A stretch of DNA of 64,000 nt from Candidatus Poribacteria bacterium (lineage in GTDB: Bacteria; Poribacteria; WGA-4E; WGA-3G). The notes under the pieces are model-generated. The model saw only the letters and a list, made by a program, of their open reading frames with translations. It did not search any database and had not been told where the DNA came from. Within the stretch, counting starts at the first letter, position 1. Each line of letters begins with the position of its first letter. Below, piece by piece: positions 3,282-18,872 of this stretch. The translations under genes were made by a program, and so were the position numbers. The stretch spans positions 124,001-188,000 of the forward strand of contig JAPPFM010000041.1 in NCBI GenBank assembly GCA_028821605.1. The letters are read 5' to 3'.

Positions 3282-3448
3282 GCTATGCCTCCCAATTGAG
3301 CATGTCGTGGTTCCAACTTTTGTATAGCAAGTTTTGACCTATGCCAAAAGTCTGTATACAAATTATAACACATATTTCAAGAAGTAGAAAAGAAAATTGC
3401 GATTTTTTTCGACCAACCAGAGATTAATTCCCACCTTTTTTAAAATAA

Positions 3449-3479
3449 TGCAACCTTTTGAAATCTAAGTTACGTCACT
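3449..3479 (+). promoter_or_regulatory. ECF-type promoter P1 (STAS gene)
   Basis: TGCAACC at 3449 and CGTCACT at 3473 have the look of ECF sigma -35 (AAC core) and -10 (CGTC) elements. Five further copies in the window keep exactly the same 24-base offset. The STAS-domain gene starts 77 bases downstream. The sequence from about 3432 to 3555 resembles 5707-5834 along its whole length, so promoter and leader were duplicated together. Confidence 0.7.
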
Positions 3480-3555
3480 CTAATCAATGGATGTTAAATT
3501 TCAACTAAATTGTCCTTGTAAATCAAACGCAACTTTCACTTTAAAGGAGTAAATC

Positions 3556-3897
3556 ATGACGACTAAAATTCGCCAGCAAAATGGGATCACGATTTTGGAA
3601 CCAAACGGAAAAATAATCGGACCCTCAACATCAGAATTATGGGAAGCAATCTCGTCGCAGATAGAGACTTCCGATACACCCCGTATTCTCATCAACTTCG
3701 AGCACGTCAAGAGGGTTGACAGTACAGGACTCGGTGTGCTCATGGGAACACGTGCCGCTGTCGCACGAAAGAAAGGCCGCGTCGGTGTCATCAATATCAG
3801 CAAACAGATCAATAATCTGATTGTTATGAGCCGACTCGTGAGTCTCTTTGAACGTTTTGACAGCGAGACTGCTGCAGTTTCAGGGCTATCCGATTAA
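3556..3897 (+). CDS. STAS-domain protein, anti-sigma-factor antagonist-like
   Basis: 113 residues, the length of a single STAS domain (SpoIIAA/RsbV type). The conserved loop RVDSTGLGVLM contains the Ser expected to be phosphorylated by a partner-switching kinase; the N-terminal ILEPNGKIIGPSTSELW is the usual first strand-turn. An AAAGGAG ribosome site precedes the ATG. By family, an unphosphorylated STAS protein binds an anti-sigma factor or kinase and frees a sigma factor. No RsbW-like kinase is visible in this window. Its upstream region carries the same ECF-type promoter as the three sigma-propeller fusions, so it may be a member or modulator of that regulon (inference). Confidence 0.9.
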   Translation: MTTKIRQQNGITILEPNGKIIGPSTSELWEAISSQIETSDTPRILINFEHVKRVDSTGLGVLMGTRAAVARKKGRVGVINISKQINNLIVMSRLVSLFERFDSETAAVSGLSD

Positions 3898-3927
3898 AAC
3901 CCAAATTTGACTTGAATTTAATAAATC

Positions 3928-4020
3928 TGAACTTACGCAGTCCTCTTTGCTGGCGAGGTTTAAAACCTCGCCAGCAGTGGGCGGACCTTAAGATTTAACA
4001 GAAACTCGCGTAAATCCTAA
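3928..4020 (+). repeat. MITE-like repeat, family 1 copy A
   Basis: About 93 bases. The left end contains GAACTTACGCA and the right end CGCGTAAATCCTAA, imperfect inverted copies of TTAGGACTTACGCA. Between them lies the hairpin GCTGGCGAGG/CCTCGCCAGC. Copy H at 57127-57219 has the same length and layout. No coding capacity. Confidence 0.6.
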
Positions 4021-4073
4021 CGCACCTTAACCTTGACTCTTAGTGCAGCTATTTTTGAAATGAGGGTTTCCTA

Positions 4074-5132
4074 ATGAAAACGCATCGCTTGACTTTTCTG
4101 TTTTCGGTAATAATTCTTCTATTGGGGATTTGCCCAAATCTGCTCTGTTGGGCAGAAGGTGTGATTGTTTACACCTATCGTAGTACGACCTACATGATAC
4201 GTCCCAATGATACCGTCCCTACACCTACGCGCATTGCGGAAGAAGGTATTTCGACACCTTCACCGGATGGTCGCTTCTTGGCAGTGGTAGACGGTGACCC
4301 TGACCGCCGTAATGTTCTTCATATCCGAGACCTCCGCACCGGTAAGAAAATTCGTTCCATCATATTGCAAGTCCATTCTTATGTGGATATTTCTTGGTCT
4401 CCGGATGGACGTTGGATTGTGTATGCTGGCAGTCCGCAAAAGATAAGAGGCGGACGCGATGTAGACACAGAAATCTTTCTAATTTCGCCGGATGGACGAC
4501 GGAAGCGAAAGTTACCACACCCCATTGGTAAGAATCCAATAGATTTTGTCTGGGCACCAGATGCGCAATCCGTGTTCTACAATCTCGCTTCAACGGACAA
4601 GCCTCAGGAGATCTGGGAGTCGAATGTCAGTGGACGAGAGAAACCTAAGAAACACTCGCTATTCCCTGAACGTGCGGGTTTCGTAAGCCGTTACCCGTTC
4701 TATAGTTTCTCCCCGGACGGTAAAAAGATTGCCTACACACCGGTTCATGAAGGTGTATTTGTTGCGGATGTTGATGGGAGGAATCACCAACCAGTGGTCA
4801 CTCACCTTGATGAAGGTATATTTGTTGTGAATGCTGGTGGAATAAACCTGCTGGAAGGAGCCAATCGCGGCTTGCGGCAGTTCTTTCAAGTAGATTGGTC
4901 GCCGAATGGCGAATACCTTGTATTTTCTGCGGATATAGGTTTTGGTAATAATGGTCTCTACATCTATTCGCTTGCGTCGCAGCAAGTTCGGCGTTTAGTT
5001 GTTTTGCCGGATAGTCTGCCTATTTCGCCGCGTTGGGTTGGTGGTGATTCGCTGCCAGTGGAACCTTTAGATAAGAGGGCTGTGACGTGGGGAGCCATCA
5101 AGGTTTCAAAGAACTTAGGACTTACGCAATAA
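4074..5132 (+). CDS. Secreted TolB-like beta-propeller protein (PD40/WD40-like repeats)
   Basis: 352 residues. The first 28 residues form a signal peptide (basic start, hydrophobic core FLFSVIILLLGI, end near CWAEG), so the protein is exported. The mature part has at least five PD40-type blades marked by STPSPDGRFLAVV, WSPDGRWIVYAG, WAPDAQSVFYN, FSPDGKKIAY and WSPNGEYLVFSA. Such propellers act as binding scaffolds in the periplasm, as in TolB; the partner here is unknown. No tol or pal genes are nearby. The last codons, TTA GGA CTT ACG CAA TAA, are identical to the end of the family 1 repeat, so the C-terminal LGLTQ seems to have been supplied by a repeat insertion. Confidence 0.85.
   Translation: MKTHRLTFLFSVIILLLGICPNLLCWAEGVIVYTYRSTTYMIRPNDTVPTPTRIAEEGISTPSPDGRFLAVVDGDPDRRNVLHIRDLRTGKKIRSIILQVHSYVDISWSPDGRWIVYAGSPQKIRGGRDVDTEIFLISPDGRRKRKLPHPIGKNPIDFVWAPDAQSVFYNLASTDKPQEIWESNVSGREKPKKHSLFPERAGFVSRYPFYSFSPDGKKIAYTPVHEGVFVADVDGRNHQPVVTHLDEGIFVVNAGGINLLEGANRGLRQFFQVDWSPNGEYLVFSADIGFGNNGLYIYSLASQQVRRLVVLPDSLPISPRWVGGDSLPVEPLDKRAVTWGAIKVSKNLGLTQ
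5115..5129 (+). repeat. Family 1 repeat end (copy B) overlapping a gene stop
   Basis: TTAGGACTTACGCAA is an exact family 1 terminal sequence. It is read in frame as the last five codons of the upstream propeller gene. A degraded partner end may lie near 5304-5320 (CGCGTGTAAGATCC), but this is uncertain. Confidence 0.5.
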
Positions 5133-5141
5133 AAAAATGTT

Positions 5142-5175
5142 AAATAGGGGGTGGTTTTACCACCCCTATTTTATT
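5142..5175 (+). terminator. Intrinsic terminator-like hairpin after the TolB-like gene
   Basis: AAATAGGGGGTGG pairs with CCACCCCTATTT over 12 base pairs with one bulged G and a loop of four to five bases, followed by TTATTTT. It sits 10 bases after the stop codon. Confidence 0.65.
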
Positions 5176-5200
5176 TTAACCATACATGGGTTCCATAAAT

Positions 5201-5279
5201 ATGCTATAAACATTGCATTCTTACAGGACTTGGGCTTTTTGGCCACACGATGCTATAAACATTTCGTCCTTACAGGACT
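5201..5279 (+). repeat. Two direct copies of a 30-base motif
   Basis: ATGCTATAAACATT begins both copies (5201-5230 and 5250-5279) and both end TTACAGGACT; only a few middle bases differ. They start 49 bases apart. They lie in the long gap before the sigma fusions and hold no gene. Function unknown. Confidence 0.55.
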
Positions 5280-5344
5280 GAAGAGGGTTTTTGTGCATAC
5301 ACGATTCGCGTGTAAGATCCGGTGCGGTTGAGTATCATGGCACC

Positions 5345-5588
5345 GTAGGTTGGGTTGAACGGATTCCAGCAAAATCGTAAAAATCATAGAAAAGTGAACT
5401 TTTCTCCTGACACGCCACATTGATCAGAGACCGAGTGAAACCCAACGCTTTTGTTGTCAAGTACCACAACTCTGAGAGTATGAAGTTGGGTTTCACTATG
5501 TTCTTGAGTGTACAGGGCAGCCTCTTGGATTTGGGGTGTGTTTGGAACACCGACATCTGCCCTTTCAATGCCGTTCAACCCAACCTAC
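5345..5588 (+). repeat. MITE-like repeat, family 2 copy 1
   Basis: A 244-base element. The left end GTAGGTTGGGTTGAACGGA (5345) is the inverse of the right end CCGTTCAACCCAACCTAC (5571-5588). Inside, GTGAAACCCAAC (near 5435) and GTTGGGTTTCACT (5485-5497) form a second inverted pair. Two more copies occur at 12235-12479 and 18436-18676. No credible reading frame. Confidence 0.75.
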
Positions 5589-5622
5589 ATGATAATCTGA
5601 TTGCTGACGGCTTTTAAAATAA

Positions 5623-5653
5623 TGCAACCTTTTGAAATCTAAGTTACGTCACT
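5623..5653 (+). promoter_or_regulatory. ECF-type promoter copy P2
   Basis: TGCAACC at 5623 and CGTCACT at 5647 (offset 24) followed by ACAATCAATGGATG, nearly identical to P1 and P3. No gene follows immediately; P3 lies 103 bases downstream. It may be a duplicated, still functional upstream start site or a relic. Confidence 0.6.
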
Positions 5654-5725
5654 ACAATCAATGGATGTAATGATTACGGAGAAATGTTTACACAAGCGAT
5701 TGATTCTCCAACTTTTTTAAAATAA

Positions 5726-5756
5726 TGCAACCTTTTGAAACCTAAGTTACGTCACT
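5726..5756 (+). promoter_or_regulatory. ECF-type promoter P3 (62-residue gene)
   Basis: TGCAACC at 5726 and CGTCACT at 5750, same 24-base offset. The downstream leader to the ATG at 5835 resembles the leader of the STAS gene, including the shared ACTTTCACTTTAAA just before the ribosome site. Confidence 0.7.
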
Positions 5757-5834
5757 ACAATCAATGGACGTTAAATTTCAGGCAAGTTGTTGATCACAAA
5801 CGGAACCGAACTTTCACTTTAAAAGGAGAAAACC

Positions 5835-6023
5835 ATGCGCTTTCTAATGATTAATCTATTCTTGGTCTTTTTATTATTCTTCGGCATTGGTTATCTTGCT
5901 TTCGGCAGCGTTGAAATTGGAGCTAATTCTGAACTGCCGGCGCATCATGTAGACAATACACCTTGGGAAGCGTCTTTTGAAACGTTCCGTTCAGAGATCA
6001 ATTTTTTGCTTTTTCAGAAGTAA
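5835..6023 (+). CDS. Small single-helix membrane or secreted protein (62 residues)
   Basis: I do not recognise this family. The first 24 residues are a hydrophobic helix (MINLFLVFLLFFGIGYLAF), either an uncleaved anchor or a signal sequence. The remaining 38 residues are polar and mildly acidic with several aromatics (PWEASFETFRSEINFLLFQK) and would lie outside the cytoplasmic membrane. The gene is supported by an AAAAGGAG ribosome site, by the ECF-type promoter 79 bases upstream, and by immediate contact with the next ECF-type promoter, which begins at its stop codon. Position suggests a partner or signal for the sigma-propeller fusion that follows, which is inference only. Confidence 0.6.
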   Translation: MRFLMINLFLVFLLFFGIGYLAFGSVEIGANSELPAHHVDNTPWEASFETFRSEINFLLFQK

Positions 6024-6054
6024 TGCAACCTTTTGAAATCTAAGTTACGTCACT
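6024..6054 (+). promoter_or_regulatory. ECF-type promoter P4 (sigma-propeller fusion 1)
   Basis: TGCAACC at 6024 and CGTCACT at 6048, same offset as the other copies. It starts one base past the stop of the 62-residue gene and lies 39 bases before the ATG of the first fusion. This fits autoregulation by an ECF sigma factor. Confidence 0.7.
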
Positions 6055-6092
6055 TCAATCAACAGACGTAATAATTCAGCAGGAGGCGTGCA

Positions 6093-9000
6093 ATGCAGCA
6101 GAGCGATGCGCAACTCATTCAGCAGGTATTACAAGGGAACCAGGAAGCATTCAGTCCCTTAGTCAAGAAATATCAAAAAGGGGTTCACGCGTTGGCGTGG
6201 CGGAAAGTCGGTGATTTTCACATCGCACAAGAACTTACGCAGGACGCGTTTCTCAAGGCGTACCGGCAACTACGTACCTTGAAGGACCATAACGCGTTTA
6301 GCGGATGGCTTTACGTTATCGTCGCGCGCGAGTGCCTTGATTGGCTCCGAAAAAACCGCATACCCATGGAATCTTTAGATACTGCTGATTCAAACGAGGT
6401 GGACAAAGTGTCATATTCTCAATATGTAGCAGAAAAACAGGAAGCCGAAGCCGACGAAACGCGCCGCGAGGTCGTCAAGGAGCTGCTCAAGAAATTACCG
6501 GAAAGTGAACGGACGGTGATGACGCTCCATTATCTCGGCGAAATGACAATCAAAGCCATCAGTGAGTTTCTGGGTGTCTCCCAGAATACCGTCAAGAGCC
6601 GCCTCAGCCGCGCCCGTAACCGTTTGCGGAAAGAGGAAGACGTAATTCAGCAGAATCTCGGCAGCTTCCAACTCCCTGATAACTTAGCGGATAACATTAT
6701 GCAGGAAGTTTCACGTATAGCACCTGTTCCACCTGCAGTGAGTAAACCGGTCGCACCCTTAGCAGTCTCTGCTGCCTCCGCTATCTTGATTTTCTTAATG
6801 ATGGGTGTTGGCACGCAGTACCTCTCCCGTTTTCAAAAACCCTACAATCTGAGTGCCACCTCTGAACCAACTGTTGATATTATTGAGGCGGTTTTTGTTG
6901 TGGACTCTCCAGCAAAGCCTGCAGTTCGGAGTCAGGCGGGAAGCTCGGCTATCCCTGGTAAAAGTCCCGGCGCGGGTCAGAAACCCGACGAATCGCTGTT
7001 TGCCACACTGCCAGTCGATATGAGAGAAGTCTCAACGCCGAAGCCTCAGTGGACCCAAACTAAGGGTCCCGAAGGAGGAGTCGTCAACGACCTCTTCATG
7101 GCATCTAACGGCGACGTTTATGCCAGAGCAGGCGCGGATCTCTATAGACTAACAGACGATAGAAACGCGTGGATATCTGCTAATACGAACATGTCTATTA
7201 ATGGATCGTGGCAAATGACAGAACATGAGGATACCCTTTATGTCGTTTCCGGTACCGAAGTACTTGCTTCCGCAGATAGAGGTAGCACATGGAATTCATT
7301 GGGAACGCGTCCAGAAGGGCAATTGATTGGCACTATTATAACGGATGAGACCCTTGGAGCGCAAGCCAACATTACAATGTACTTGGGACTTGTTGATGGT
7401 GTATTCCACTCTGTAGATGCCGGTAAATCGTGGACATCTCTTACCGACGAAAACCTAACCGATAGGAAAATTCGGGCAATCACCGCTATAGAAAACACTG
7501 TCTTTGTCGGGACGGATAATGGCCTTTATCGCCACAGTTCAGGAGGCTGGGAGCAATTACCCGTAGGTGAAGTCGAGAATATCCTTGCATTGGCAAGTGC
7601 TGAGCACCGACTCTATGTTGCCGTTGGAGAGGAGATTGAAAATAAGAAGCTTTCGATCTCCGTGTCAATGTCGGAATCTAATACCGATCTGTCGCTTTAC
7701 CGTTCAACAGACCTCGGAGATTCGTGGCAAGCGATAGATTTCCCGAAAAAAACAGCTTCCGATTCCGAGGAAAACGCTGGATTTACTTTTGCCACTGGTG
7801 CTGGCACTCGACCAGTGGATGACAACTCAGAAATGGAAAAGACTGCCAGCGTCAAAATGGTGGCAGCACAGGAAAGACTTTTAGTCGTAGATGGCGTTGA
7901 GAGTTATTACTCAAGTGATGCAGGGGAAACATGGATATCTTTAGGTTTAGGTGACGCAGCTATAGGAAGTCCTGCCACCCGTGTCTTAGCGGCAGCTACA
8001 GGAGGTGATTCCACCGCTGTTATATCGGATGCGAACACCTTTTACAAAAGTAGTAGTCCATTGGGGATTCAACGCACGACCGATGGAGGCAAAACATGGC
8101 ATCCGTTTAACACTGGATTGATAAGAACTGGTGTAGACAAGTTGGTCTATGCCAATAATATGCTTTACGCAAAAACATGGGGAAAACTTGTTGGCTCGTT
8201 TGATGATGGTGAATCGTGGACCCCTGTTTTAGGTGGTCCTGAAATTCTCACGAGTATGATGAAATTTAACGATGTGCCCTATGTCAAAGGTGTTGAAGGG
8301 GGATCGCCTCAACTTTTCCGCGTATCTGCGGAGGATAATGGGTTAGTGCCAGTTCCCGGAATGCCAATTTTAGGGGGGATAGACCTTAAAGAGCTGATCT
8401 TTGAAGCCTTTGGAAACGTCCTTCCGGAACCCGTACAAGATGAACTTCAGGAAAACATTGAAGAAGGTAAGGGATTAAAACCTGAAGATTTCGATATGGA
8501 TCTACTCAGCACAGTTGCTAATGAGACTGTAGAGAAAGGTCTCGTTAAACTCTTTCAGGCATACTTTGGGAATTTCGCTGTCAGCGGTAGTACTTACTAT
8601 ATGGAATATGACCAGCAACTCCTCAGGTGGAAGCCCGGTATGACTGAATGGTTCAATACTGGCTTAGCGGATGCAGGTGAGTCTATTCATTCTATCGCTG
8701 ACATTCAAGATCAGGGTTCCCTTGATTTCAAAATCGCAGTTTCAGGTAAAAATGTTTACGTTGGCAAACGGGATGGACACCTCCTTCAATCGTTTGATGA
8801 AGGCGATACTTGGAACGATGTCACGACAGACCTCCCATTTTCTGTTACCCAATTCAAAGCTATCGCCTTCGCCGGACCAACGCTTTACGTGGCAACCGAT
8901 AAAGGTGTTACGTATTCAGGTGATGGGATCCGCTGGTACACGGCAACCGATGCGGAAGGCACGTCACCTGTCATAGAAAAAATGGCAGTGGACGGCACAA

Positions 9001-9170
9001 CGGTATACGGCGCAACTTGGCAACAGATATATCAATTGAAAGAGAATTCAAGCAGATGGGAACAAGTCACACCGGAAGTTCCGAGCGAGATTAGCTCGCT
9101 TGCTGTTGATGGCAGCACACTTTATGTAGGAACTACGGATCGCGGCGTGCTACGTTTCACGCTTGATTAG
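6093..9170 (+). CDS. Membrane-tethered ECF sigma factor fused to an Asp-box beta-propeller (paralogue 1)
   Basis: 1025 residues. Residues 1-90 are sigma region 2 (DFHIAQELTQDAFLKAYRQL, then FSGWLYVIVARECLDWLRKN). Residues 125-182 are region 4 with its helix-turn-helix (LPESERTVMTLHYLGEMT, then ISEFLGVSQNTVKSRLSRAR). After a conserved spacer (LGSFQLPDNLADNIM) comes one membrane helix at about 222-242 (SAASAILIFLMMGVG). The remaining 780 residues lie outside and hold a Pro/Gly linker, then seven canonical Asp-boxes such as SADRGSTW, STDLGDSW, SSDAGETW, TTDGGKTW and SFDEGDTW, with a helical insertion near 760-830. This would be a one-protein sensor: ligand outside, promoter recognition inside. 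No anti-sigma gene adjoins. Strong AGGAGG ribosome site. Related ECF-propeller fusions are known from Planctomycetes; the ligand is unknown. Confidence 0.93.
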   Translation: MQQSDAQLIQQVLQGNQEAFSPLVKKYQKGVHALAWRKVGDFHIAQELTQDAFLKAYRQLRTLKDHNAFSGWLYVIVARECLDWLRKNRIPMESLDTADSNEVDKVSYSQYVAEKQEAEADETRREVVKELLKKLPESERTVMTLHYLGEMTIKAISEFLGVSQNTVKSRLSRARNRLRKEEDVIQQNLGSFQLPDNLADNIMQEVSRIAPVPPAVSKPVAPLAVSAASAILIFLMMGVGTQYLSRFQKPYNLSATSEPTVDIIEAVFVVDSPAKPAVRSQAGSSAIPGKSPGAGQKPDESLFATLPVDMREVSTPKPQWTQTKGPEGGVVNDLFMASNGDVYARAGADLYRLTDDRNAWISANTNMSINGSWQMTEHEDTLYVVSGTEVLASADRGSTWNSLGTRPEGQLIGTIITDETLGAQANITMYLGLVDGVFHSVDAGKSWTSLTDENLTDRKIRAITAIENTVFVGTDNGLYRHSSGGWEQLPVGEVENILALASAEHRLYVAVGEEIENKKLSISVSMSESNTDLSLYRSTDLGDSWQAIDFPKKTASDSEENAGFTFATGAGTRPVDDNSEMEKTASVKMVAAQERLLVVDGVESYYSSDAGETWISLGLGDAAIGSPATRVLAAATGGDSTAVISDANTFYKSSSPLGIQRTTDGGKTWHPFNTGLIRTGVDKLVYANNMLYAKTWGKLVGSFDDGESWTPVLGGPEILTSMMKFNDVPYVKGVEGGSPQLFRVSAEDNGLVPVPGMPILGGIDLKELIFEAFGNVLPEPVQDELQENIEEGKGLKPEDFDMDLLSTVANETVEKGLVKLFQAYFGNFAVSGSTYYMEYDQQLLRWKPGMTEWFNTGLADAGESIHSIADIQDQGSLDFKIAVSGKNVYVGKRDGHLLQSFDEGDTWNDVTTDLPFSVTQFKAIAFAGPTLYVATDKGVTYSGDGIRWYTATDAEGTSPVIEKMAVDGTTVYGATWQQIYQLKENSSRWEQVTPEVPSEISSLAVDGSTLYVGTTDRGVLRFTLD

Positions 9171-9174
9171 TTTC

Positions 9175-9205
9175 GTAGGGGTTGGGTTCCCCAACCCTTA
9201 CCTAC
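9175..9205 (+). terminator. Hairpin after sigma-propeller fusion 1
   Basis: GGGTTGGG/CCCAACCC stem inside an outer GTAGG/CCTAC pairing, followed by AAAAAA rather than T. It sits five bases after the stop and may be a REP-like element that also limits read-through. Confidence 0.45.
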
Positions 9206-9226
9206 AAAAAATAAGGAAATTTAAAA

Positions 9227-10507
9227 ATGTTAAAAATAATTGAACGGTTAAAGATTCATTATCTCAGGTTGCACTTACAAGAAAAAACGATAACACTTTT
9301 GTTCACAACTGTATTGATGGTGATGGGTTTACAACTGCCCCTCCACGCAGACACAAATCAGTTTCTCTTTGATATGGACGCGATTAAAGATCCGGGCAGT
9401 TTGGCGGTGAAACTTGCAGACACGCGCGCACCGGTGTCCCAATTGATTGCATCGCAATTGTCCGAAGATATACAGAGGCTGTTAGTTGGGTACGATGGCG
9501 CAAGCGATCCGTCTCCGAAGCTGCAGAAGGTACTGCTTGCAGAGCTGAATCGGCTCCTTCAAGCGGGTCCCCTCTATGATCCCGAACTATTCGCTGATAT
9601 TGAATTCAATAAACAGATGCAGACACTCATTGCCCAAAATCCAAAAAGTAGAGAAGCATTGGTTCGCCTAAACCGATTCCTCTTGGCGGCTGCTTATCCT
9701 TATGAACTCGCAGCACCTATAGCGCAACAGGACGCTAAGCGTTCTAAAGGGATTGAGGCATGTAGAGAGAATTTGAGACAGATAAAACTGGCGCGTGAGA
9801 ATTATCGCGTTTCCAATGCAGATACAGATCCGCAATGGCTTTCCGAACTTGCTCCACAATATTTGGAGAAGGAAGTGCTTCTCTGTCCTGCAGACTCAAC
9901 AGTAGGAACTCCCGGCGTTCTCACCGACGATGCGTCGGATCCAACGCTGCCGTGTAGTTATCTCTATGAGATGCGTCCTTCTAAAAAAGCGGATCAGGAA
10001 ACGCTGTGGATGCAGGAAGGTGATATGACTCCCATCGTTCGGTGTGAACATCATCGCCTCAACTTAAGTGTTGCTGGGAAACTCTATAGAAACGGACCGC
10101 AAAGAACTATCTATAATAGCAACAAGACAGAGTATTCTGCCTTATCTGACTTTTTACGGGACTTACGGGCACAACATGGAGAGAATTTTTTCAAAACCCA
10201 AACAGTCAGAGAGAAAATTAAGGAAGCGACTGAGACGTTGGTACTCAAACACTTGCCTAAGGTAATCAATCGTATGGAGGTGAGTATCCTTGAACAAGTT
10301 AAACCGCAGCTGGAGGCACAATTTGGAAAGGGTATTCTTGAGACACAAATGGGTGTGAATATCCTCCAACAAGTGACCGTGCAGATGAAAGATCAGATTA
10401 AGGAAAAACTACAGTCGCAACTACAATCGCACCTTGGGGAAGAATTTCTTAAAACGGAAGAGGGGAAGGACATCCTTGAGCAGCTATCGGTGTTGATGTC
10501 TCCTTGA
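9227..10507 (+). CDS. Secreted protein with a pseudopilin-like domain and helical C-terminus
   Basis: 426 residues. The N-terminus has a basic segment and a hydrophobic stretch (TITLLFTTVLMVMGLQLPLHA) that reads as a signal peptide ending near residue 41. A middle part (about 175-265) has CRENLRQIKLARENY, WLSELAPQYL, LLCPADS and a later SYLYEM. These resemble the globular part of type II secretion pseudopilins and DUF1559 prepilin-like proteins, but the class III prepilin leader is absent. The last 120 residues are amphipathic helices with a loose repeat (FFKTQTVREKIKE, GILETQMGVNILQQV, EFLKTEEGKDILEQL). AAGGA ribosome site. It lies between sigma fusion 1 and an ABC-2 permease. Function unknown. 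Confidence 0.75.
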   Translation: MLKIIERLKIHYLRLHLQEKTITLLFTTVLMVMGLQLPLHADTNQFLFDMDAIKDPGSLAVKLADTRAPVSQLIASQLSEDIQRLLVGYDGASDPSPKLQKVLLAELNRLLQAGPLYDPELFADIEFNKQMQTLIAQNPKSREALVRLNRFLLAAAYPYELAAPIAQQDAKRSKGIEACRENLRQIKLARENYRVSNADTDPQWLSELAPQYLEKEVLLCPADSTVGTPGVLTDDASDPTLPCSYLYEMRPSKKADQETLWMQEGDMTPIVRCEHHRLNLSVAGKLYRNGPQRTIYNSNKTEYSALSDFLRDLRAQHGENFFKTQTVREKIKEATETLVLKHLPKVINRMEVSILEQVKPQLEAQFGKGILETQMGVNILQQVTVQMKDQIKEKLQSQLQSHLGEEFLKTEEGKDILEQLSVLMSP

Positions 10508-10618
10508 CGTGTCATTGCCTTTCCCAGCTCCGTTGGCGAGGATACATGAAGATTCAGAATTTATAGTAAAACCCGAAAATAAGAGGGCACTTTGGAAAAC
10601 ACAAAACACTTCACCACC

Positions 10619-10647
10619 GCTGGCGAGGTTTGGAACCTCGCCTTTTA
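10619..10647 (+). repeat. GCTGGCGAGG hairpin repeat
   Basis: GGCGAGGTT/AACCTCGCC forms a 9-base stem with a 3-base loop followed by TTTT, so it can act as a terminator for the secreted protein gene. The same hairpin forms the core of family 1 copies A, F and H. Confidence 0.55.
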
Positions 10648-10693
10648 CAAAAGATCAAAAGGTTAAGAAATAAAAAATAGAGGAGAAATTACG

Positions 10694-12124
10694 ATGCTAA
10701 TGACATTGATTCAGAAAGAGATTATGCACCACATTTTGAGCGTCCGTTTCGTCGCGCTCTTGCTGATGTGTGTGTTGCTTATTCCACTTACGCTTTCTAT
10801 CGGTTATCGAAATTATCAACAGAACCTTGTTGATTACCAAGAAGCCGTTAAATTGGCAAACATTGAGGAAGCAAAGATGAACCCGAAGATGGAACTGAAG
10901 CCGGAGTTGGAAGTTTCTAAACTTTTCCTCAAGCCGACACCGCTGAGCGTTTTCGCAAACGGATTAGGGGATGCCCTGCCGAGTTATCTTGGAATGACGC
11001 GCAATGGAATTACACAAGGTGCTCCAGCTTTGGTTTCAGATTCTCTTTCTTACCTTTTGGGACATCTTGATTTGCTATTTCTTGTAGGTACTGTTTTCAG
11101 TTTGCTTGCACTCTTGTTTACTTTTGATGCTGTTGCTGGGGAAAGAGAAGCCGGAACACTTCGGATTACGCTATCAAATTCCTTGCCGCGCGACCTCTTC
11201 CTATGGAGTAAGCTGATCGGTGGTTACTTAGTGTTCGTCGTTCCATTCTTGATATCACTGCTATTCGGTTTACTGATGCTTGTTTGGCAAGGTTTTCCGC
11301 TTGGGGAGTCTGAAATTTTTCCACGGGTGGTGAGTCTAACTGTCGTTTCGCTACTCTACATTGGGGTTTTCTTCGCAATTGGAACGGTTATTTCTACCTA
11401 TTTAGATAATTCCAAGACCGCGCTGATTATCGCATTTACGGTTTGGGTGTTCGCCGTACTTATTACACCGCGTGTTGGGTTCCTCGCGGCGAAATTCATC
11501 GCGCCGACCCAAACATCGCAGAGTGTCTATCTTGAAAAGACGGCTCTCCGTGAGAATTTCAATGCAGAACTTGAAGAAAAGAAAGCGAAGATACACCAAG
11601 AATTCTGGAAAAATCGTCAGCAGCCTTCCTTTGATGAACAGATAGCGAACACTCTTGCTGGGGGCATCAGTGATGTGGATAAAGAGGTGCAACCGGTTGA
11701 GGAGGAATTTCGGCAGAAATTCAAGGAGAGTGCTGACGAAATAGATCGACGTTACAAACGGGACAAAGCGCGGCAAGAATCTGTAGGTGAAACGCTTTCT
11801 CGGATCACACCCACATCTTCGCTCATCTATCTCACAACAAATTTAACCCAGACCGGAAAGACAAAAAGAGACAATTACTTTCAAGCGGGTCATCGCTATT
11901 ATGATGCGCTTGATACGGATTGGTTTAGCAAAGTTGTAGATCATATCTCTATGAGAATGATGACAGCAGAAGATACCGTTACAATCACACAACCACCCTC
12001 TTTAGAAATTATGGCCTTAGGCGAGGTGCTCCGTCAATCAATGGTGGACCTCCTATTGCTCTGTTTTTTTGCAGTGGTATTGACTACGGTGGCGTTCCTA
12101 AAATTCTTCCGCTCCGATATTTAA
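10694..12124 (+). CDS. ABC-2 type transporter permease (paralogue 1)
   Basis: 476 residues. One N-terminal helix (FVALLLMCVLLIPLTLSIGY) is followed by an extracytoplasmic stretch of about 75 residues. Next come LLFLVGTVFSLLALLFTFDA and the family motif AGEREAGTLR, then three further helices (around 175-260), a large extracytoplasmic loop rich in charged residues (about 275-430) and a C-terminal helix (LLLLCFFAVVLTTVAFL). The plan matches ABC-2/DUF3526-type permeases. No ATPase gene is within the window, so the nucleotide-binding partner must be encoded elsewhere. An AGAGGAG ribosome site precedes the ATG. The second copy at 12707 has exactly the same length. Confidence 0.88.
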   Translation: MLMTLIQKEIMHHILSVRFVALLLMCVLLIPLTLSIGYRNYQQNLVDYQEAVKLANIEEAKMNPKMELKPELEVSKLFLKPTPLSVFANGLGDALPSYLGMTRNGITQGAPALVSDSLSYLLGHLDLLFLVGTVFSLLALLFTFDAVAGEREAGTLRITLSNSLPRDLFLWSKLIGGYLVFVVPFLISLLFGLLMLVWQGFPLGESEIFPRVVSLTVVSLLYIGVFFAIGTVISTYLDNSKTALIIAFTVWVFAVLITPRVGFLAAKFIAPTQTSQSVYLEKTALRENFNAELEEKKAKIHQEFWKNRQQPSFDEQIANTLAGGISDVDKEVQPVEEEFRQKFKESADEIDRRYKRDKARQESVGETLSRITPTSSLIYLTTNLTQTGKTKRDNYFQAGHRYYDALDTDWFSKVVDHISMRMMTAEDTVTITQPPSLEIMALGEVLRQSMVDLLLLCFFAVVLTTVAFLKFFRSDI

Positions 12125-12130
12125 AACAAT

Positions 12131-12602: not shown

Positions 12603-12706
12603 AAAATTGATTAGTGATAGCCAAATCAATTCGGGAAAAGATAGAGAGAAACCCAACCTCCAAAAGATCAAACGATGAAAAAATAAAAAACAGAGGAGAA
12701 ATTACG

Positions 12707-14137
12707 ATGCTAATGACCTTGATACAAAAAGAGATTATGCACCACATTTTGAGCGTCCGGTTCGTCGCGCTTCTGTTAATGTGCCTTTTGCTCGTTCCGC
12801 TCACCCTTTCGATCAATTACCGTAGGTATAGCCAGAACCTTGTAGACTACCAAGAGTCGATCAAACGCGAACAGACAGAGGCGAAAGAAAATCCTCCGAA
12901 CGCGTCGGACCCGAACACAGAGGTTTCCAAGTTGTTCCTCAAACCTACACCTTTGAGTGTCTTTGCGAACGGTTTAGAGGATGCGCTTCCGACGTATCTT
13001 GGAATGACGCGTAATGGGGTCCGGCAAGGTTCAGCAGGGGTTTCTCAAGCATCCGTTGCGTATGTCTTAGGAAATCTTGATTTCCTGTTTATCGTAGGGA
13101 CAGTTTTCAGTCTGTTGGCACTTCTGTTTACTTTTGATGCTGTAGCAGGGGAGCGGGAGGCGGGAACTCTTCGGATAAACCTGTCAAACCCTCTTCCGCG
13201 AGATGTATTCTTGTGGAGCAAACTGATTGGCGGATACATTGTGTTTGTCGTTCCGTTCTTGGTGTCTTTCCTCTTAGGGTTGCTCTTGCTGGTCTGGCAA
13301 GGCTTTCCGCTCGGTGAGCTCAAAGTCGCACTACCCGTTTTGGGTTTGACGGTTATCTCGCTCCTCTATATTGCTGTGTTTTTTGCGATAGGTGTGGTCA
13401 TTTCAACCTATCTGGACAATGCCAAGACAGCACTGATTGTCGCTTTTACGTTTTGGGTGCTTGCCGTGCTGATCGCACCACGCGGGGCGTTTGTCGTTGC
13501 TAAACTCGTCGCACCCACTCGGACACAGCAGGCTGTTTATATGGAAAAAACGGTGCTTCGTAACAATCTGACGAAAGATAGGGACGAAAAAATTATGAAA
13601 AAAATGACTGAAACTTTCGCCGGTAGCGAAGGTATCCATATTCGCTCAGACGACGAAAGAATCGATGAAATCAAAAAGCCGATCAATGAACAGTTTCGAC
13701 AGGAATTCCAGAATCAAACGGACAAAATTGACAGGGACTATCAGCGTGAGAAGGATCGGCAAGAATATGTTGGAGAAACACTTTCTCGGATCGCGCCAAC
13801 ATCCTCTCTAACATACATTGCTATGAACCTCACGCAAACGGGTAAGTTGAAAAGGGACGGCTATTTCCAAACGGGTGAGCGGTACTATAGTCAACTTGAT
13901 GACTCTTATTTCAGCGAAGTTTCAGACGATGTACTGGGGCAGGTGATGCAGTTAATGAATCGGATGAACGATTCTTCTGAATCCGAAACAGAAAAAATAC
14001 CACCGCCGCCAACCCTGACGGAGCCTTCTTTATCGGACACATTGCGTCGCTCTGCGGTGGATGTACTCTTACTCGGTTTTTTCGCTTTGGCGTTTACAAC
14101 GGTGGCATTTCTGAAGTTCTTCCGTTCCGATATTTGA
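12707..14137 (+). CDS. ABC-2 type transporter permease (paralogue 2)
   Basis: 476 residues, the same length as the permease at 10694 and very similar throughout (both begin MLMTLIQKEIMHHILSVRF and end TTVAFLKFFRSDI). The ATG at 12707 is chosen because it aligns with the paralogue and has the same AGAGGAG site at the same spacing; an upstream in-frame start at 12614 would add residues the paralogue lacks. Membrane helices and the AGEREAGTLR motif are in the same places. The two copies differ most in the outer loop at about 275-430. No ATPase is adjacent. It probably arose by tandem duplication of permease plus leader. Confidence 0.88.
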   Translation: MLMTLIQKEIMHHILSVRFVALLLMCLLLVPLTLSINYRRYSQNLVDYQESIKREQTEAKENPPNASDPNTEVSKLFLKPTPLSVFANGLEDALPTYLGMTRNGVRQGSAGVSQASVAYVLGNLDFLFIVGTVFSLLALLFTFDAVAGEREAGTLRINLSNPLPRDVFLWSKLIGGYIVFVVPFLVSFLLGLLLLVWQGFPLGELKVALPVLGLTVISLLYIAVFFAIGVVISTYLDNAKTALIVAFTFWVLAVLIAPRGAFVVAKLVAPTRTQQAVYMEKTVLRNNLTKDRDEKIMKKMTETFAGSEGIHIRSDDERIDEIKKPINEQFRQEFQNQTDKIDRDYQREKDRQEYVGETLSRIAPTSSLTYIAMNLTQTGKLKRDGYFQTGERYYSQLDDSYFSEVSDDVLGQVMQLMNRMNDSSESETEKIPPPPTLTEPSLSDTLRRSAVDVLLLGFFALAFTTVAFLKFFRSDI

Positions 14138-14289
14138 TTGAGGGATGCTTTAGCCCCAGTTGACGAAGTTTCTGCGGAAATACCGAAGCAAACACCCGCT
14201 ATCCCGTCGGTGTATAAGTAATTGTGAGCTTTACTCTATTATTTACCCCAAGTTGCGACCTACAAGATTTTAGTTATGAAACCTGGGTC

Positions 14290-14351
14290 TTTGTAGCGTA
14301 AACTTTCAGTTTGCGCACGCAGAAGCACAGACTAACAGTCTATGCTACAAA
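14290..14351 (+). repeat. Inverted repeat TTTGTAGC/GCTACAAA
   Basis: TTTGTAGC at 14290 pairs with GCTACAAA at 14344-14351, with inner partly paired segments (AACTTTCAGTTTGCG against AGACTAACAGTCT). A further GCTACAAAGG follows near 14376. It lies in the 550-base gap between permease 2 and sigma fusion 2, whose remaining content is a possible gene relic and promoter P5. Confidence 0.45.
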
Positions 14352-14443
14352 AACCAGCACAATCTAACACATTCTGCTACAAAGGTAGCAACTTAGGTTA
14401 TTATTTAACCAAAACCCTCTTACGTTAGAAAGGCTTGAAAACG

Positions 14444-14605
14444 CTAATGACAATTGAAGTTCCGCGCGCTCATCAGATCTTTGTAAATGCTCGTGCTATC
14501 CTTTGGCGCGATTGTTTTCCACCCTTCCAACATTGCCGTTACACCGTTCTCCTCTCCTTTAATCGCTTCTGGTAGTGTCAGTTTCCTAACCCTGATTCCC
14601 CTATC
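14444..14605 (-). pseudogene. Possible short coding relic
   Basis: Read on the minus strand, about 50 codons are open and end in TAG at 14444-14446. The peptide contains RKLTLPEAIKGEENG, AMLEGWKTIAPKDSTS and IYKDLMSARNF, which has protein-like composition. There is no ribosome site, and the frame runs into promoter P5 on its 5' side. It may be the 3' remnant of a displaced gene or chance. I do not recognise the family. Confidence 0.25.
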
Positions 14606-14615
14606 GGAAAAATAA

Positions 14616-14646
14616 TGCAACCTTTTAATACTCAGAATTCGTCACT
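14616..14646 (+). promoter_or_regulatory. ECF-type promoter P5 (sigma-propeller fusion 2)
   Basis: TGCAACC at 14616 and CGTCACT at 14640, with the same 24-base offset although the bases between differ from P1-P4. That the two boxes and their spacing are retained while the spacer changes argues for selection. The fusion ATG is 42 bases downstream. Confidence 0.7.
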
Positions 14647-14687
14647 TTTAACAAAAGATAGGCGAGGCGATTTCGGAGGGGCTTGTA

Positions 14688-17600
14688 ATGGAACAGAAGG
14701 ATGCCAAACTCATTCAACGGATATTAGAGGGTGACCAAGACGCGTTTTCGCCGTTGGTCAACAAATATCAGAAGGGTGTTCACGCGCTGGCGTGGCGGAA
14801 AGTCGGGGACTTTCACATCGCACAAGAGATTGCACAGGACGCGTTTCTCAAGGCATATCAGAAACTCGGAACCTTGAAAAGTTATGAATCGTTTGGTGGC
14901 TGGCTTTATGTCATCGCGTCAAACTTGTGTCTCGACTGGCTCCGAAAGAATCCCCCGCCGGAGCAATCTTTGGAAGTTACCGATGCAAGCGAGGTGAATC
15001 AAGTGTCATATTCTCGATACATAGCAGGAAAGCAGGCGGCGGAAGCCGATGAGACGCGTCGTGAAATCGTCAAGAAATTGCTCCAAAAACTGCCGGAAAG
15101 CGAACGCACAGTGATGACGCTCCATTACCTCGGCGAAATGACGATAAAGACCATCAGTGAGTTTCTCGGTGTTTCGCCGAATACCGTCAAGAGCCGACTC
15201 AACCGCGCCCGAAATCGTCTAAAGAAGGAGGAAGATATGATTCGACAAAACCTTGGTAGTTTCCAATTACCTGCACAATTAGCAGAAAACATCATGCGAG
15301 AAATCTCGCGTATGACTCCCACCGCACCTGCTACGAATAAACCGGTGATTCCTTGGGCACTTTCTGCCGCTTCCGCTGTTTTAGTTTTGTTACTGATGGG
15401 TGTTGGTACACAATACCTCTCCCGCTTCCAGAAACCTTACGATTTGAATGCGACATCGGAACGGACAGTTGAGATTATTGAGGCAAATTTTGTCTTAGAT
15501 TCACCCGCGAAACCTGCAGTGCGAAATCAGGCAGGTAGTTCGACTACCCCCGGTAAAAACCCCAGTGCCGGTCAAAAACCCGACGCTCGACTCTTCGCTG
15601 CAGCAATTAACGAAACAGAAGTTTCAACCCCGAAACCGCAGTGGATACAAACAAAGGGACCGGAAGGTGGTCTTGTTAACAGCCTCTTCACCACAACTTC
15701 CGGTGATATTTACGCAGGGACACCCACCAGCCTCTATAAACTCGCGGACGATGCGCGCGCATGGAGACTCGTTAATGCAAGAAGTGCCAGTTCACTCGGT
15801 ATCCAAGATTGGATAGCGGGTGGGATACAGATGACGGAGCACGGTGATATGCTCTACCTTGCCACTGATACCGAAGTATTAGCTTCCACGGATAGAGGTG
15901 AGACGTGGGATTCGTTGGGCACCCATTCAGAAGGATCCCCCAGAGGCTTGGCGGTAACCGATGCGGGGTTTTATATCGCGTTTATTGAAGATATTTTCTT
16001 CTCTGAAGGTAATCAGACAGCGTGGGTATCATTGAAAGATGGCTTAGAAACCGAGAAGATTCGAGGACTTGTCTCCGTTGAAAACACTGTATTTGTCGGC
16101 ACCGATACCGGCCTCTATCGCCGCAATGCTGAGGTGTGGGAACAGTTGTCAGTGGGTCCTGCAGATAAACGCGGGCAAAAACTGACCGTCCACGCCTTAG
16201 CAGCCTCTGAACACCGTCTCTATGTTGCCGCGGGTTGGGAATTTACAAATGAGATCGGCACCCAAGGCAAAGCGATAATGACAGGCGATAACTGGTGGTC
16301 AGTTTATCGCTCAACCGATTTGGGTGATACGTGGTATGCTATAAATCCAAGAAAAAGGACAGAAAATGAGAGAAAGCCGAAGGGCGGAATTTCAACTCTA
16401 TTTCCCCCGAAGGGTGCCAATTCAACGCCTGTTGATTTTACCTATTCAAATTTCAAAATAATCACGTCTGGCGCTAAAGTTATGTTAGCGCATCCACGTG
16501 AACTTTTCTATTCAGTTAATGCTGGCGAGACGTGGACCTCCTTAGATTTAAAGGATAGGTCTGCTGGTATGAACAATATAGCGCCACCAATTGTGATGTT
16601 GGACGCAGATACCTTCTACAGAGGCAGCCAAGCTGGAGTCTATCGCACAACCGACGCAGGCGAATCGTGGCATCAACTTAATACAGGACTCGCTGGGACT
16701 ACCGTTATGGATCTATTCTCTATTAACGGTAAACTCTACGCCTCTGAAATGGACGGACTTGTCACCTCGACTGACGGTGGTGAGTCTTGGACACCATTTA
16801 CCGTCGATGCTCCGCCTATGGGAGGTATATCGGTTTTTCGGAAATTTGACGATGTGCTTTACATGAAGGGTATGGCAGTCATAAAACCTCAGATCCTGCG
16901 TTTATCTACAGAGGGTGACAAATTTATACCTATTCCTGGGATCCCTAAGATTTTTGAAAAAGTTGATCCGCTGAATAATGAACTAACGGATCGGTTAAAC
17001 CGAAAAAACGAGAAGGCAGCACGCGATGTACTCACGGATATAGCTAAGCAAGACCTTGAGAGCGGTGAGATTCTCGATACTACGGATATTGAGCAGGCAA
17101 GTAAAGCAGCGCATCAGATGGTCCAAGAGTCAATTGGAACCGCTATGCCATCAATGTTCGGAAACTTTTCTGTCAGCGGCGAAACATATTATGTTGAACA
17201 CAAGCAGAGACTCTTCAGATGGAAATCTGGTACGGATGCTTGGTATAACACCGGTTTAGTAGATAAAGGCGAAAGTTTTATTTCGACTTTAATGTCCACT
17301 CCTTTTGACTATTCGGCAGGGGCTTCTCTTTTTAGTGATGTTTTTAATTCTATGGGTTTCAAGCTCGCGGTTGCAAATAAAACCGTTTACGTTGGAAAAA
17401 GAGATGGACATCTCTCTCAATCATTCGATGAGGGCGAAACTTGGAACGATGTCACCGCAGACCTTCCGTTTCCTGTGGAGAAGTTCAATACAATTGCCTT
17501 CGCGGGATCAACTGTTTATGTGGCAACCGATAAAGGGGTCGCTTATTCAAGCGATGGAACTCAATGGCATGAGGCAGTTGGCATTGAAGGCAGCCCACTT

Positions 17601-17804
17601 GTTATTGAAAAAATTGTGGTGGATGGCACGAGGGTATATGGGACATCCGGACAATACGTGTATCAGACGAAAGGGAATTCAGGCACATGGGAACAAGTAA
17701 CGCCTGAAATCCCTGATACCGTCTTGTCGTTTGATGTTGATGGCAACACGCTTTATGTTGGAACTTCCAGCAGTGGTGTGCTGCGTTTCACGCTTGACGA
17801 GTAG
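14688..17804 (+). CDS. Membrane-tethered ECF sigma factor fused to an Asp-box beta-propeller (paralogue 2)
   Basis: 1038 residues with the same plan as the fusion at 6093. The first 250 residues align with the other two paralogues without a gap: region 2 (DFHIAQEIAQDAFLKAYQKL), region 4 (ISEFLGVSPNTVKSRLNRAR), the LGSFQLPAQLAENIM spacer and a membrane helix at about 222-242 (SAASAVLVLLLMGVG). The outer part has Asp-boxes STDRGETW, STDLGDTW, TTDAGESW, STDGGESW and SFDEGETW, plus degenerate ones. A helical insertion (about 765-830) differs strongly from paralogue 1, so ligand or partner specificity may have diverged there. GGAGG ribosome site. A small anchored protein gene follows 43 bases downstream. 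Confidence 0.93.
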   Translation: MEQKDAKLIQRILEGDQDAFSPLVNKYQKGVHALAWRKVGDFHIAQEIAQDAFLKAYQKLGTLKSYESFGGWLYVIASNLCLDWLRKNPPPEQSLEVTDASEVNQVSYSRYIAGKQAAEADETRREIVKKLLQKLPESERTVMTLHYLGEMTIKTISEFLGVSPNTVKSRLNRARNRLKKEEDMIRQNLGSFQLPAQLAENIMREISRMTPTAPATNKPVIPWALSAASAVLVLLLMGVGTQYLSRFQKPYDLNATSERTVEIIEANFVLDSPAKPAVRNQAGSSTTPGKNPSAGQKPDARLFAAAINETEVSTPKPQWIQTKGPEGGLVNSLFTTTSGDIYAGTPTSLYKLADDARAWRLVNARSASSLGIQDWIAGGIQMTEHGDMLYLATDTEVLASTDRGETWDSLGTHSEGSPRGLAVTDAGFYIAFIEDIFFSEGNQTAWVSLKDGLETEKIRGLVSVENTVFVGTDTGLYRRNAEVWEQLSVGPADKRGQKLTVHALAASEHRLYVAAGWEFTNEIGTQGKAIMTGDNWWSVYRSTDLGDTWYAINPRKRTENERKPKGGISTLFPPKGANSTPVDFTYSNFKIITSGAKVMLAHPRELFYSVNAGETWTSLDLKDRSAGMNNIAPPIVMLDADTFYRGSQAGVYRTTDAGESWHQLNTGLAGTTVMDLFSINGKLYASEMDGLVTSTDGGESWTPFTVDAPPMGGISVFRKFDDVLYMKGMAVIKPQILRLSTEGDKFIPIPGIPKIFEKVDPLNNELTDRLNRKNEKAARDVLTDIAKQDLESGEILDTTDIEQASKAAHQMVQESIGTAMPSMFGNFSVSGETYYVEHKQRLFRWKSGTDAWYNTGLVDKGESFISTLMSTPFDYSAGASLFSDVFNSMGFKLAVANKTVYVGKRDGHLSQSFDEGETWNDVTADLPFPVEKFNTIAFAGSTVYVATDKGVAYSSDGTQWHEAVGIEGSPLVIEKIVVDGTRVYGTSGQYVYQTKGNSGTWEQVTPEIPDTVLSFDVDGNTLYVGTSSSGVLRFTLDE

Positions 17805-17847
17805 TGTGTGACTATAAATTTTACTATAAAATATGGAGAAAATTGAG

Positions 17848-18417
17848 ATGCGTCAGGTAAAATGGTTACTTATTTGTTTATTTATTTTATTTGCTGTGTC
17901 GCTGGTTTTTAAGTTCGGCTGTACTACTGAAGACTTCGGTAAAACGGGGTTTAACATCACATTATCGGTTACCGGTATGACGCGAGTTACATCTGCTTTC
18001 AGTGTTATAAGTTCGTTGCAAAAAATTGATAATCTGGTCATCGAAGATGCTACCTACAAGGTAGTGAAAGCAACGCTACCATTTGGTAAGTTGAGAAATG
18101 AAGCACAAGTTTCGGTAAAATATACGCCTTCTACGAATGAGGTTTCGTTTAAAAAAGAGACAGATGAACCAACCAAGCCTGTTTTGGAGAATAAAATGGG
18201 TTGGCGTCTGAAACCCGATGAACCGAAGTACTTTATTGTTGTCGTGCAGGCACTCGTTGGTGCGGATCCTGCTAATGGCGTAAGTGATGTAATTTCAGAC
18301 CGTGTAAAAGCAGCATTAATCGAGGCTGTCGAAGACTTAGGTTTTGAGGCACGTGTGGAAAGCATAGAGGCACGTGAGGCAACTTCTATGAAACGTTACA
18401 CGCTCGGATTCAATTAG
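17848..18417 (+). CDS. Small N-terminally anchored envelope protein, unknown family
   Basis: 189 residues from the ATG at 17848, which has GGAG nine bases upstream; the earlier ATG at 17833 lacks a site. Residues 5-25 are hydrophobic (LLICLFILFAVSLVFKFGC) and end in a Cys. The residues before it (K-F-G-C) are a poor lipobox, so I favour an uncleaved anchor over a lipoprotein. The outer part looks alpha/beta, with a possible ferredoxin-like rhythm (YKVVKATLPFGKLRNEAQV, YFIVVVQALVG, VKAALIEAVEDLGFEARVE). It follows sigma fusion 2 closely and is likely co-transcribed, so it may assist that sensor. Function not recognised. Confidence 0.7.
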   Translation: MRQVKWLLICLFILFAVSLVFKFGCTTEDFGKTGFNITLSVTGMTRVTSAFSVISSLQKIDNLVIEDATYKVVKATLPFGKLRNEAQVSVKYTPSTNEVSFKKETDEPTKPVLENKMGWRLKPDEPKYFIVVVQALVGADPANGVSDVISDRVKAALIEAVEDLGFEARVESIEAREATSMKRYTLGFN

Positions 18418-18435
18418 CGAAAGGTTGGCAAAGCA

Positions 18436-18676
18436 GTAGGTTGGGTTGAACGGAACTCAGAAGACTGATGTGTTCCCCAAATACCTCTCAAATCCGGTGT
18501 GTTGTCGTATGTAATCAAGAACCGAGTGAAACCCAACTTCATACCGTCATTGTCTCGGTGGTTTCCACAAAAATGTTGGGTTTCACTCGGTTTGTGTTTG
18601 ACGTAACACATATCGACCATGTTCATTTTTCTATTGTTCTTCAGGGTTTTGGTGGTATCCGTTCAACCCAACCTAC
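18436..18676 (+). repeat. MITE-like repeat, family 2 copy 3
   Basis: A 241-base element from GTAGGTTGGGTTGAACGGA (18436) to CCGTTCAACCCAACCTAC (18659-18676), with the inner GTGAAACCCAAC/GTTGGGTTTCAC pair. It lies directly after the small envelope protein gene. The downstream flank AAATTGACACCTATGGTGCG resembles the flank of copy 2. Confidence 0.75.
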
Positions 18677-18776
18677 ATGCCATGATACAGTTTTCTCAAA
18701 TTGACACCTATGGTGCGGTGTTTTGCTGGAGTGTTTCCCTCCTAACCTCACCGGACTTTGCAAATAAATTATCGTA

Positions 18777-18802
18777 GGCGCGCTGTCAAGCGCGCCTTTT
18801 TT
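18777..18802 (+). terminator. Intrinsic terminator before sigma-propeller fusion 3
   Basis: GGCGCGC and GCGCGCC form a perfect 7-base GC stem with a TGTCAA loop, followed by TTTTTT. It separates the fusion 2 unit from promoter P6. Confidence 0.8.
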
Positions 18803-18841
18803 ATTAGCATAAACCCTCTTTCTGAAAATATCGTTAAATAA

Positions 18842-18872
18842 TGCAACCTTTTAATATCTAAAACCTGTCACT
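18842..18872 (+). promoter_or_regulatory. ECF-type promoter P6 (sigma-propeller fusion 3)
   Basis: TGCAACC at 18842 and TGTCACT at 18866, offset 24, differing from the other copies at the first base of the second box. The fusion ATG is 38 bases downstream. The adjacent terminator upstream makes an independent start likely. Confidence 0.7.

Follow-up and report, generated by a model that had tools for sequence, protein, structure and literature searches.

Sigma factors of the extracytoplasmic function (ECF) type typically go together with AAC in the -35 box, CGT in the -10 box and positive autoregulation—features given in the excerpted text of a review (PMC8103513). In the available sections of PMC8999054, ECF57 is described with WD40-like C-terminal extensions, and ECF48, ECF52 and ECF53 as fused proteins with one or two transmembrane (TM) segments; the accessible part of PMC5411451 reports that the IutY protein is trimmed to about 50 periplasmic residues and then needs RseP. 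Here, we examine a 64-kb stretch of the genome of a Candidatus Poribacteria bacterium (assembly GCA_028821605.1, 6.0 Mb, 98% complete; contig JAPPFM010000041.1, C41:124001-188000), the whole of which is called the window below. In it, six promoter-like sites precede three genes for ECF sigma domains fused to C-terminal repeats (sigA, sigB and sigC), a STAS gene and a small gene of 62 codons. In our judgement, these sites are probably ECF-type promoters read by sigma domains of the SigA/SigB/SigC clade, embedded in autoregulatory or mutually activating loops in which the sigma domains would be released by proteolysis.

Scanning both strands of the whole window for exact TGCAACC-N17-(C/T)GTCACT returned six matches, all of them on the plus strand, intergenic and outside every open reading frame (ORF) of at least 100 codons; their positions, the distance of 24 bases between the boxes (start to start, 6/6) and the single TGTCACT had been listed in an earlier note on this DNA, and all reappeared in our scan. 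P1 (3449-3479, with the -35-like TGCAACC at 3449-3455 and the -10-like CGTCACT at 3473-3479) lies 76 bp before the STAS gene; here and below, gaps run from the last base of the -10 box up to the start codon. P2 (5623-5653) and P3 (5726-5756) are the distal and proximal copies of a tandem, 181 and 78 bp before the 62-codon gene; P4 (6024-6054) starts right after the stop codon of that gene and 38 bp before sigA, P5 (14616-14646) stands 41 bp before sigB, and P6 (18842-18872), with TGTCACT in place of the CGTCACT of the five others, 37 bp before sigC. The placement of a copy just upstream of each of these genes, also put forward earlier, is therefore confirmed, with gaps of 37-181 bp. The chance expectation for the motif in the window was 0.00, with a maximum of 0, over 100 dinucleotide shuffles. 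A position-weight scan of the window recovered the same six sites at 27-33 bits, the next best match scoring 10.9, and backward-read controls gave one match at 24.2 and three at 13.6-14.6. The 31-mer core is the same in P1, P2 and P4 and one base off in P3; the spacers of P5 and P6 differ. A stretch AATCAAnnGAYGT after the -10 box (3480-3500, 5654-5680, 6055-6075) is also largely kept in P1-P4 and in the sigA orthologues.

Across the genome, the strict motif occurred eight times, with no match in backward-read controls, and all eight copies lay outside ORFs of at least 100 codons, each upstream of an ORF. Allowing up to two mismatches gave 47 matches versus 9 in controls, and a degenerate exact form gave 20 versus 1. 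Eighteen of these 20 lay outside such long ORFs—the two others, at C7:145465 and C56:153273, fall inside—and an ATG-start ORF followed within 230 bp in 16 of the 18. A location outside genes and near starts, on which the earlier note had staked its proposal, is what the genome mostly displays. Half of the degenerate-form sites (10/20) stand before a sigma gene, nine times a member of the fused family described below and once, at 398 bp, a conventional ECF gene (C31). Other genes behind a site are the STAS gene, the 62-codon leader gene, which has two, paralogues of this leader gene on C50 (with a Reg_prop domain) and C55, an ABC ATPase gene (C2) and a CotH-family gene (C25); the site on C32 has only a 61-codon TTG ORF downstream. 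Additionally, shorter spacings (N15-16, 22-23 bases start to start) gave five matches, three of which (C38:33552, C38:35020 and C59:206046) precede sigma genes.

The same promoter form recurs before the relatives of SigA, SigB and SigC within this genome. Sigma70_r4_2 has 77 matches, 60 of them in proteins of at least 240 residues, and 57 of the 60 constitute one family of sigma factors with C-terminal extensions, three having been dropped as another type with 16-19% identity to the first row. An unsupervised count of gapped 4-mers in the 250 bp upstream of the 57 fused genes placed both TGCA-25-GTCA (17/57) and TGCA-24-CGTC (16/57) within the top four, both absent from the backward control and present once on the reverse strand. 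T-rich gapped words rank high too, TTTT-21-TTTT being as frequent in the backward control. Moreover, a jackknifed weight matrix seeded from the TGCAACC and CGTCACT boxes scored above 12 before 42 of the 57 genes, as compared with 0.4% of 285 dinucleotide shuffles, 0/57 reverse strands and 0/20 other sigma genes. The family consensus reads aATTATGCAaCCtT, then 22-24 bases start to start, then CGTCACT or (C/T)GTCTTT, with a median promoter distance of 56.5 bp to the start codon; SigA, SigB and SigC each have a promoter with AAC at -35 and CGT at -10 before their own gene.

Among relatives, the strict motif was present in 34 of the 36 genus genomes, counting the one studied here, and in none of 24 outside the genus, with one control match in the 60. 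A held-out scan at the same cut-off covered sigma genes of other named Poribacteria (82 of 85 ORFs), which lie outside the matrix and are largely orthologous to SigA-C; 61 of the 82 passed, versus 1/82 and 0/82 in controls, with 23/28 for sigA, 17/18 for sigB, 14/16 for sigC and 7/20 for other sigma genes. Footprints were drawn from 28, 14 and 12 of the 29, 20 and 19 genes that match sigA, sigB or sigC best in the present genome, leaving out genes at or below 55% identity, short ORFs and upstream stretches that were short or identical. In these orthologues, identity to the own box was 0.90, 0.96 and 0.85 at -35 and 0.88, 1.00 and 0.83 at -10, and the DNA 20-120 bp upstream stood at 0.31-0.35. 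The tandem offset of P2 and P3, 102-103 bp, recurs in several other genomes. We make no claim beyond the genus, because 30 loci, taken from the 89 sigma matches that five genomes in the same order or class contain, yielded one site above 12 bits and no gapped word commoner than in the backward control.

Which sigma factor reads which promoter was approached through the co-divergence of promoter parts with the sigma domain (Mantel, 42 genes). Co-divergence with the sigma domain is seen for the -10 box, for the eight spacer bases that adjoin it, for the eight bases preceding the -35 box and for the twelve following the -10 box (r 0.29-0.41, p<=0.002); two upstream flanks gave 0.06 (p 0.11) and 0.09 (p 0.01), and the four bases after the -35 box showed no co-divergence. 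Twelve genes have a -10 box with T for A after GTC, mostly (C/T)GTCTTT, and ten of them belong to one sigma clade (support 100/98). A column-wise comparison between sigma residues and -10 types was confounded by clade and discarded as evidence. That the -10 box and its neighbouring bases follow the sigma clades, and that the eight other sigB orthologues and most sigC orthologues have spacers unlike those of sigA, speaks against a shared network, i.e., real ECF promoters under a single master sigma factor, or under several that act across genes, instead of gene-by-gene autoregulation. Such a network draws support, however, from the -35 box, which is common to the family and does not co-diverge with the sigma sequence (r 0.00), so that many paralogues could share promoters; from the identical 31-mers of P1, P2 and P4 before three different genes; from the site upstream of the conventional ECF gene on C31; and from 6 of 14 sigB orthologues, which have a sigA-type spacer (CTAAGTTA or GTAAGTTA ahead of CGTCACT), so that spacers do not consistently mark one sigma factor. 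Co-divergence, moreover, is no proof of autoregulation, as a promoter is inherited along with its gene. We give the shared network an appreciable chance, but one distinctly below even. Sigma-specific reading of the -10 box over a shared -35 box, i.e., partial insulation with possible cross-talk, would fit the pattern.

A passive origin of the repeats—a promoter-leader cassette duplicated along with genes, without selection—has to be weighed mainly at P1-P3. Beyond the core, the stretches 3431-3513, 5605-5687 and 5708-5790 are 78-89% identical along 83 nt, and because of this block P1-P3 were probably copied together with their leader; a conserved promoter and 24-codon leader ahead of several different tails likewise suits passive copying. 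Over the same stretch P4 reaches 71% identity, the upstream DNA of P4, P5 and P6 is unrelated, and the 100 bp before P5 and before P6 resemble none of the other sites. The argument from the earlier note, that boxes kept amid varying spacers indicate function, accordingly stands for P4-P6, whereas P1-P3 have their copied flanks in common. Set against passive copying as a general account are the boxes that persist while upstream flanks diverge between species, the spacing of 22-24 bases in 42/42 scored sites, the strict motif across 34 of the 36 genomes and the 57 fused genes, among which no long upstream similarity was found; passive copying is thus disfavoured and seems barely credible. A further proposal takes the sites as operators of a dedicated DNA-binding repressor or activator. 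The conserved bases do reach past both boxes on either side, which speaks for it, but the AAC and CGT boxes have the described ECF form, the sites are associated with the sigma genes themselves, and no dyad symmetry was seen across the family sites (by eye only, no test), leaving this proposal very improbable.

The reading that we favour, i.e., ECF promoters served by the SigA/SigB/SigC clade, would find its machinery in the domain order of the family. SigA, SigB and SigC consist of Sigma70 regions 2 and 4, a hydrophobic helix near residues 220-240 and BNR/Sortilin-Vps10-like repeats. Sigma70_r2 and r4_2 were present in 60/60 scanned proteins, and the nearest solved structures to the sigma domains, in sequence and fold, are SigW, AlgU and E. 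coli sigma-E. A hydrophobic stretch near residues 205-265 occurs in 44 of the 57 family members under a simple threshold and in 40 under a stricter one; promoters are present in 32/44 members with the helix and 10/13 without. The count of K+R per 20 residues is 3.16 before and 1.84 after this stretch, in line with a sigma end in the cytosol. In 53 paralogues, conservation covers the sigma domains, the linker, the helix and ~45 residues after it (0.55-0.61 at residues 241-280) and falls off past residue 300 (0.25-0.39). The C-terminal parts are exchangeable and include Sortilin-type repeats in 22/60 and WD40 in 9/60; of 25 further sigma proteins scanned singly, 12 have no domain above cut-off outside the sigma part and 13 have another one, namely redoxin (3), M16-like (2), GHL15, M61-N, kelch, Reg_prop, C-type lectin, Big_5, HTH_20 and the DNA polymerase III beta clamp.

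On this architecture, RNA polymerase with SigA/SigB/SigC-clade sigma domains would read the six sites through TGCAACC at -35 and CGTCACT at -10, preceded by an AT-rich AATAA/AATTA stretch. As each sigma gene has its own copy of the site, each most likely sits in a positive autoregulatory or mutually activating loop, and P1-P3 would widen the output to the STAS protein and a small membrane-anchor protein. The single helix would tether the sigma domain to the inner membrane, while the sensor would lie outside. Once the sensor is damaged or receives a signal, the protein could be trimmed by proteolysis close to the conserved juxtamembrane stretch of ~45 residues; an RseP-type site-2 protease would then free the sigma domain, which would start transcription at its own promoter and at those of a few envelope genes. 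The sites with their position, conservation and recurrence across the family are observed, as is the domain order; transcription, the pairing of sigma factor and site, sensing and proteolysis are the steps that we infer in this chain. The genome holds one full-length and one partial match to M50 proteases.

Several observations weigh against this account, beside the untracked -35 box, the exchanged spacers and the copied flanks of P1-P3. Fifteen of the 57 fused sigma genes lack the motif, all scoring below 5, and at a cut-off of >9 the controls begin to pass (3/20 other sigma genes, 2/57 reverse strands and 1.1% of shuffles). The motif is also missing in 5/28 sigA orthologues and 13/20 other sigma genes of relatives, and conservation is not confined to the boxes, since the DNA from the -10 box to the start codon is conserved as well (0.73, 0.48 and 0.76 in sigA, sigB and sigC). 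M50 proteases occur in 14/14 control genomes and are hence unspecific, and an AlphaFold model of SigA 1-320 was poor outside the sigma domains (mean pLDDT 68.6, below 50 at residues 238-320), with nothing reliable on the TM and juxtamembrane part. In that model, the sigma domains lay closer to anti-sigma-bound CnrH (rmsd 3.9) than to polymerase-bound structures (~22-28), a fit discarded as evidence because other anti-sigma-bound structures gave 9-21 and the inter-domain linker has a pLDDT below 50. Functional ECF promoters through which the SigA/SigB/SigC clade would activate itself and a few envelope genes are still, on the sequence evidence, the best reading. The ECF-type promoters of the earlier note are supported in this way; its wording that they define a regulon was too strong, as the pairing of sigma factor and promoter is only predicted, and we speak of a predicted regulon of membrane-tethered sigma factors.

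The genes behind the sites add detail to this picture. SigA (1025 aa, 6093-9170, helix at ~220-238, BNR/Vps10-type repeats), SigB (1038 aa, 14688-17804) and SigC (1048 aa, 18910-22056), all on the plus strand, share one architecture. The STAS-domain protein (113 aa, 3556-3897, plus strand; Pfam STAS 6.4e-14) is SpoIIAA-like, has homologues and retains the DS(T/S)GLG motif as DSTGLG, which resembles the phosphorylated serine site of SpoIIAA. The 62-codon gene (5835-6023, plus strand) encodes a conserved 24-residue membrane-anchor leader followed by a variable tail. Its leader exists in 13 copies, three of which run on into proteins of 464-471 residues; synonymous codon differences (mean 7.7 per 24 codons and pair) outnumber non-synonymous ones (4.8), and the gene is, on this codon pattern, a translated anchor. 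A GGAG ribosome-site-like stretch accompanies the leader, which precedes very different tails in proteins of 31-471 residues (5835-6023; L076, L077, L107 and L144). No anti-sigma domain was found in the six non-sigma window genes scanned; of these, the genes at 9227 and 17833 had no Pfam match and may still encode one. Two similar ABC-2 permease-like genes lie at 10694-12124 (the one scanned) and 12614-14137; no ATPase gene beside them was noticed in the ORF list, in which no search was aimed at one. Elsewhere in the genome, an ABC ATPase gene (L091:1777) has the strict motif.

Further members of the family deserve mention. Ten fused sigma genes lie within 45 kb at C16:46398-91300, and 33-46 kb before this cluster several genes have (A/G)GCAACCGTTTTGTC...CGCGTCACT sites; of three similar ones, the one scanned contains PD40 repeats. 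Another family member (572 aa; L213:5728-7443, minus strand, equal to C55:109727-111442; orthologues L272-L282) is an in-frame fusion of the sigma factor with an entire DNA polymerase III beta sliding clamp, the three domains of which lie at 209-568; a separate clamp gene with a 375-codon frame is located at C55:200466. Full-length matches to the fusion occur in 28 of the 36 genus genomes (E<=1e-120; three at 43-44% identity), and 7 of the 12 loci examined, that of the present genome among the 12, have the promoter motif ahead of the fusion. The fusion recalls the clamp-activated late transcription of T4 described in the consulted portion of PMC2988020. Tentatively, with a probability not quite reaching even, we place it on a branch of the family without membrane helix and view the whole as some 57 one-protein regulators—a constant sigma-TM-juxtamembrane cassette with exchangeable sensors, mostly with their own ECF promoter and clade-matched -10 subtypes—that would form a partly insulated, self-amplifying network without separate anti-sigma factors and carry a large share of the envelope signalling in this genus.

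In a term look-up, the word 'sigma' was absent from the main text, as far as available, of the Poribacteria papers PMC3909097 and PMC5087111, and its single mention in the accessible text of PMC6081418 concerns an antagonist of a sigma factor in an acidobacterium-like organism. The parts are each of a known kind; their scale and modularity were not found in the open-access literature searched. Fused membrane-tethered sigma factors are known from few cases, and here, if the reading is true, they would be a main signalling mode of one uncultured genus. Promoters readable from sequence would provide testable regulons for sponge-symbiont bacteria, represented here by assembled genomes only. They would also offer a naturally occurring set of paralogous sigma/promoter pairs, in which the evolution of specificity can be followed, and candidate components of gene switches that sense at the cell surface.

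Compared with the fused groups already described, the family resembles ECF57 and ECF48/52/53 (PMC8999054, available sections) in its C-terminal repeat extension or fused TM region. For ECF57, a pair of conserved cysteines that joins sigma2 to sigma4 is described; the sigma part here has one column above 50% Cys (residue 81, 0.94 of 53), and none of 28 proteins scanned singly has a zinc-finger anti-sigma domain of the ECF48/52/53 type before the TM segment. As in ECF (group IV) factors, sigma2 and sigma4 are the only DNA-binding determinants, with HTH_20-like C-terminal matches in two members, one above the Pfam cut-off. IutY of Pseudomonas putida (ECF243), a sigma factor fused to a membrane anti-sigma and of a type freed by the proteases Prc and RseP, likewise has a cytosolic sigma part, a membrane pass and a periplasmic part, and its ~50-residue intermediate (PMC5411451, accessible part) agrees well with the conserved ~45-residue stretch, near which proteolysis would occur. 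No FecR-type domain like that of IutY was reported by Pfam at E<=0.001 in SigA, SigB, SigC and the 25 others scanned singly; the present sensors include BNR/Vps10, WD40, kelch and redoxin. Finally, the autoregulated promoters of SigW, AlgU and E. coli sigma-E have in common with the present sites an AAC-type -35 box, a CGTC-type -10 box and a position before the sigma gene—whereas here one polypeptide combines the sigma factor with its own membrane helix and sensor, and dozens of paralogues in one genome share the promoter form.

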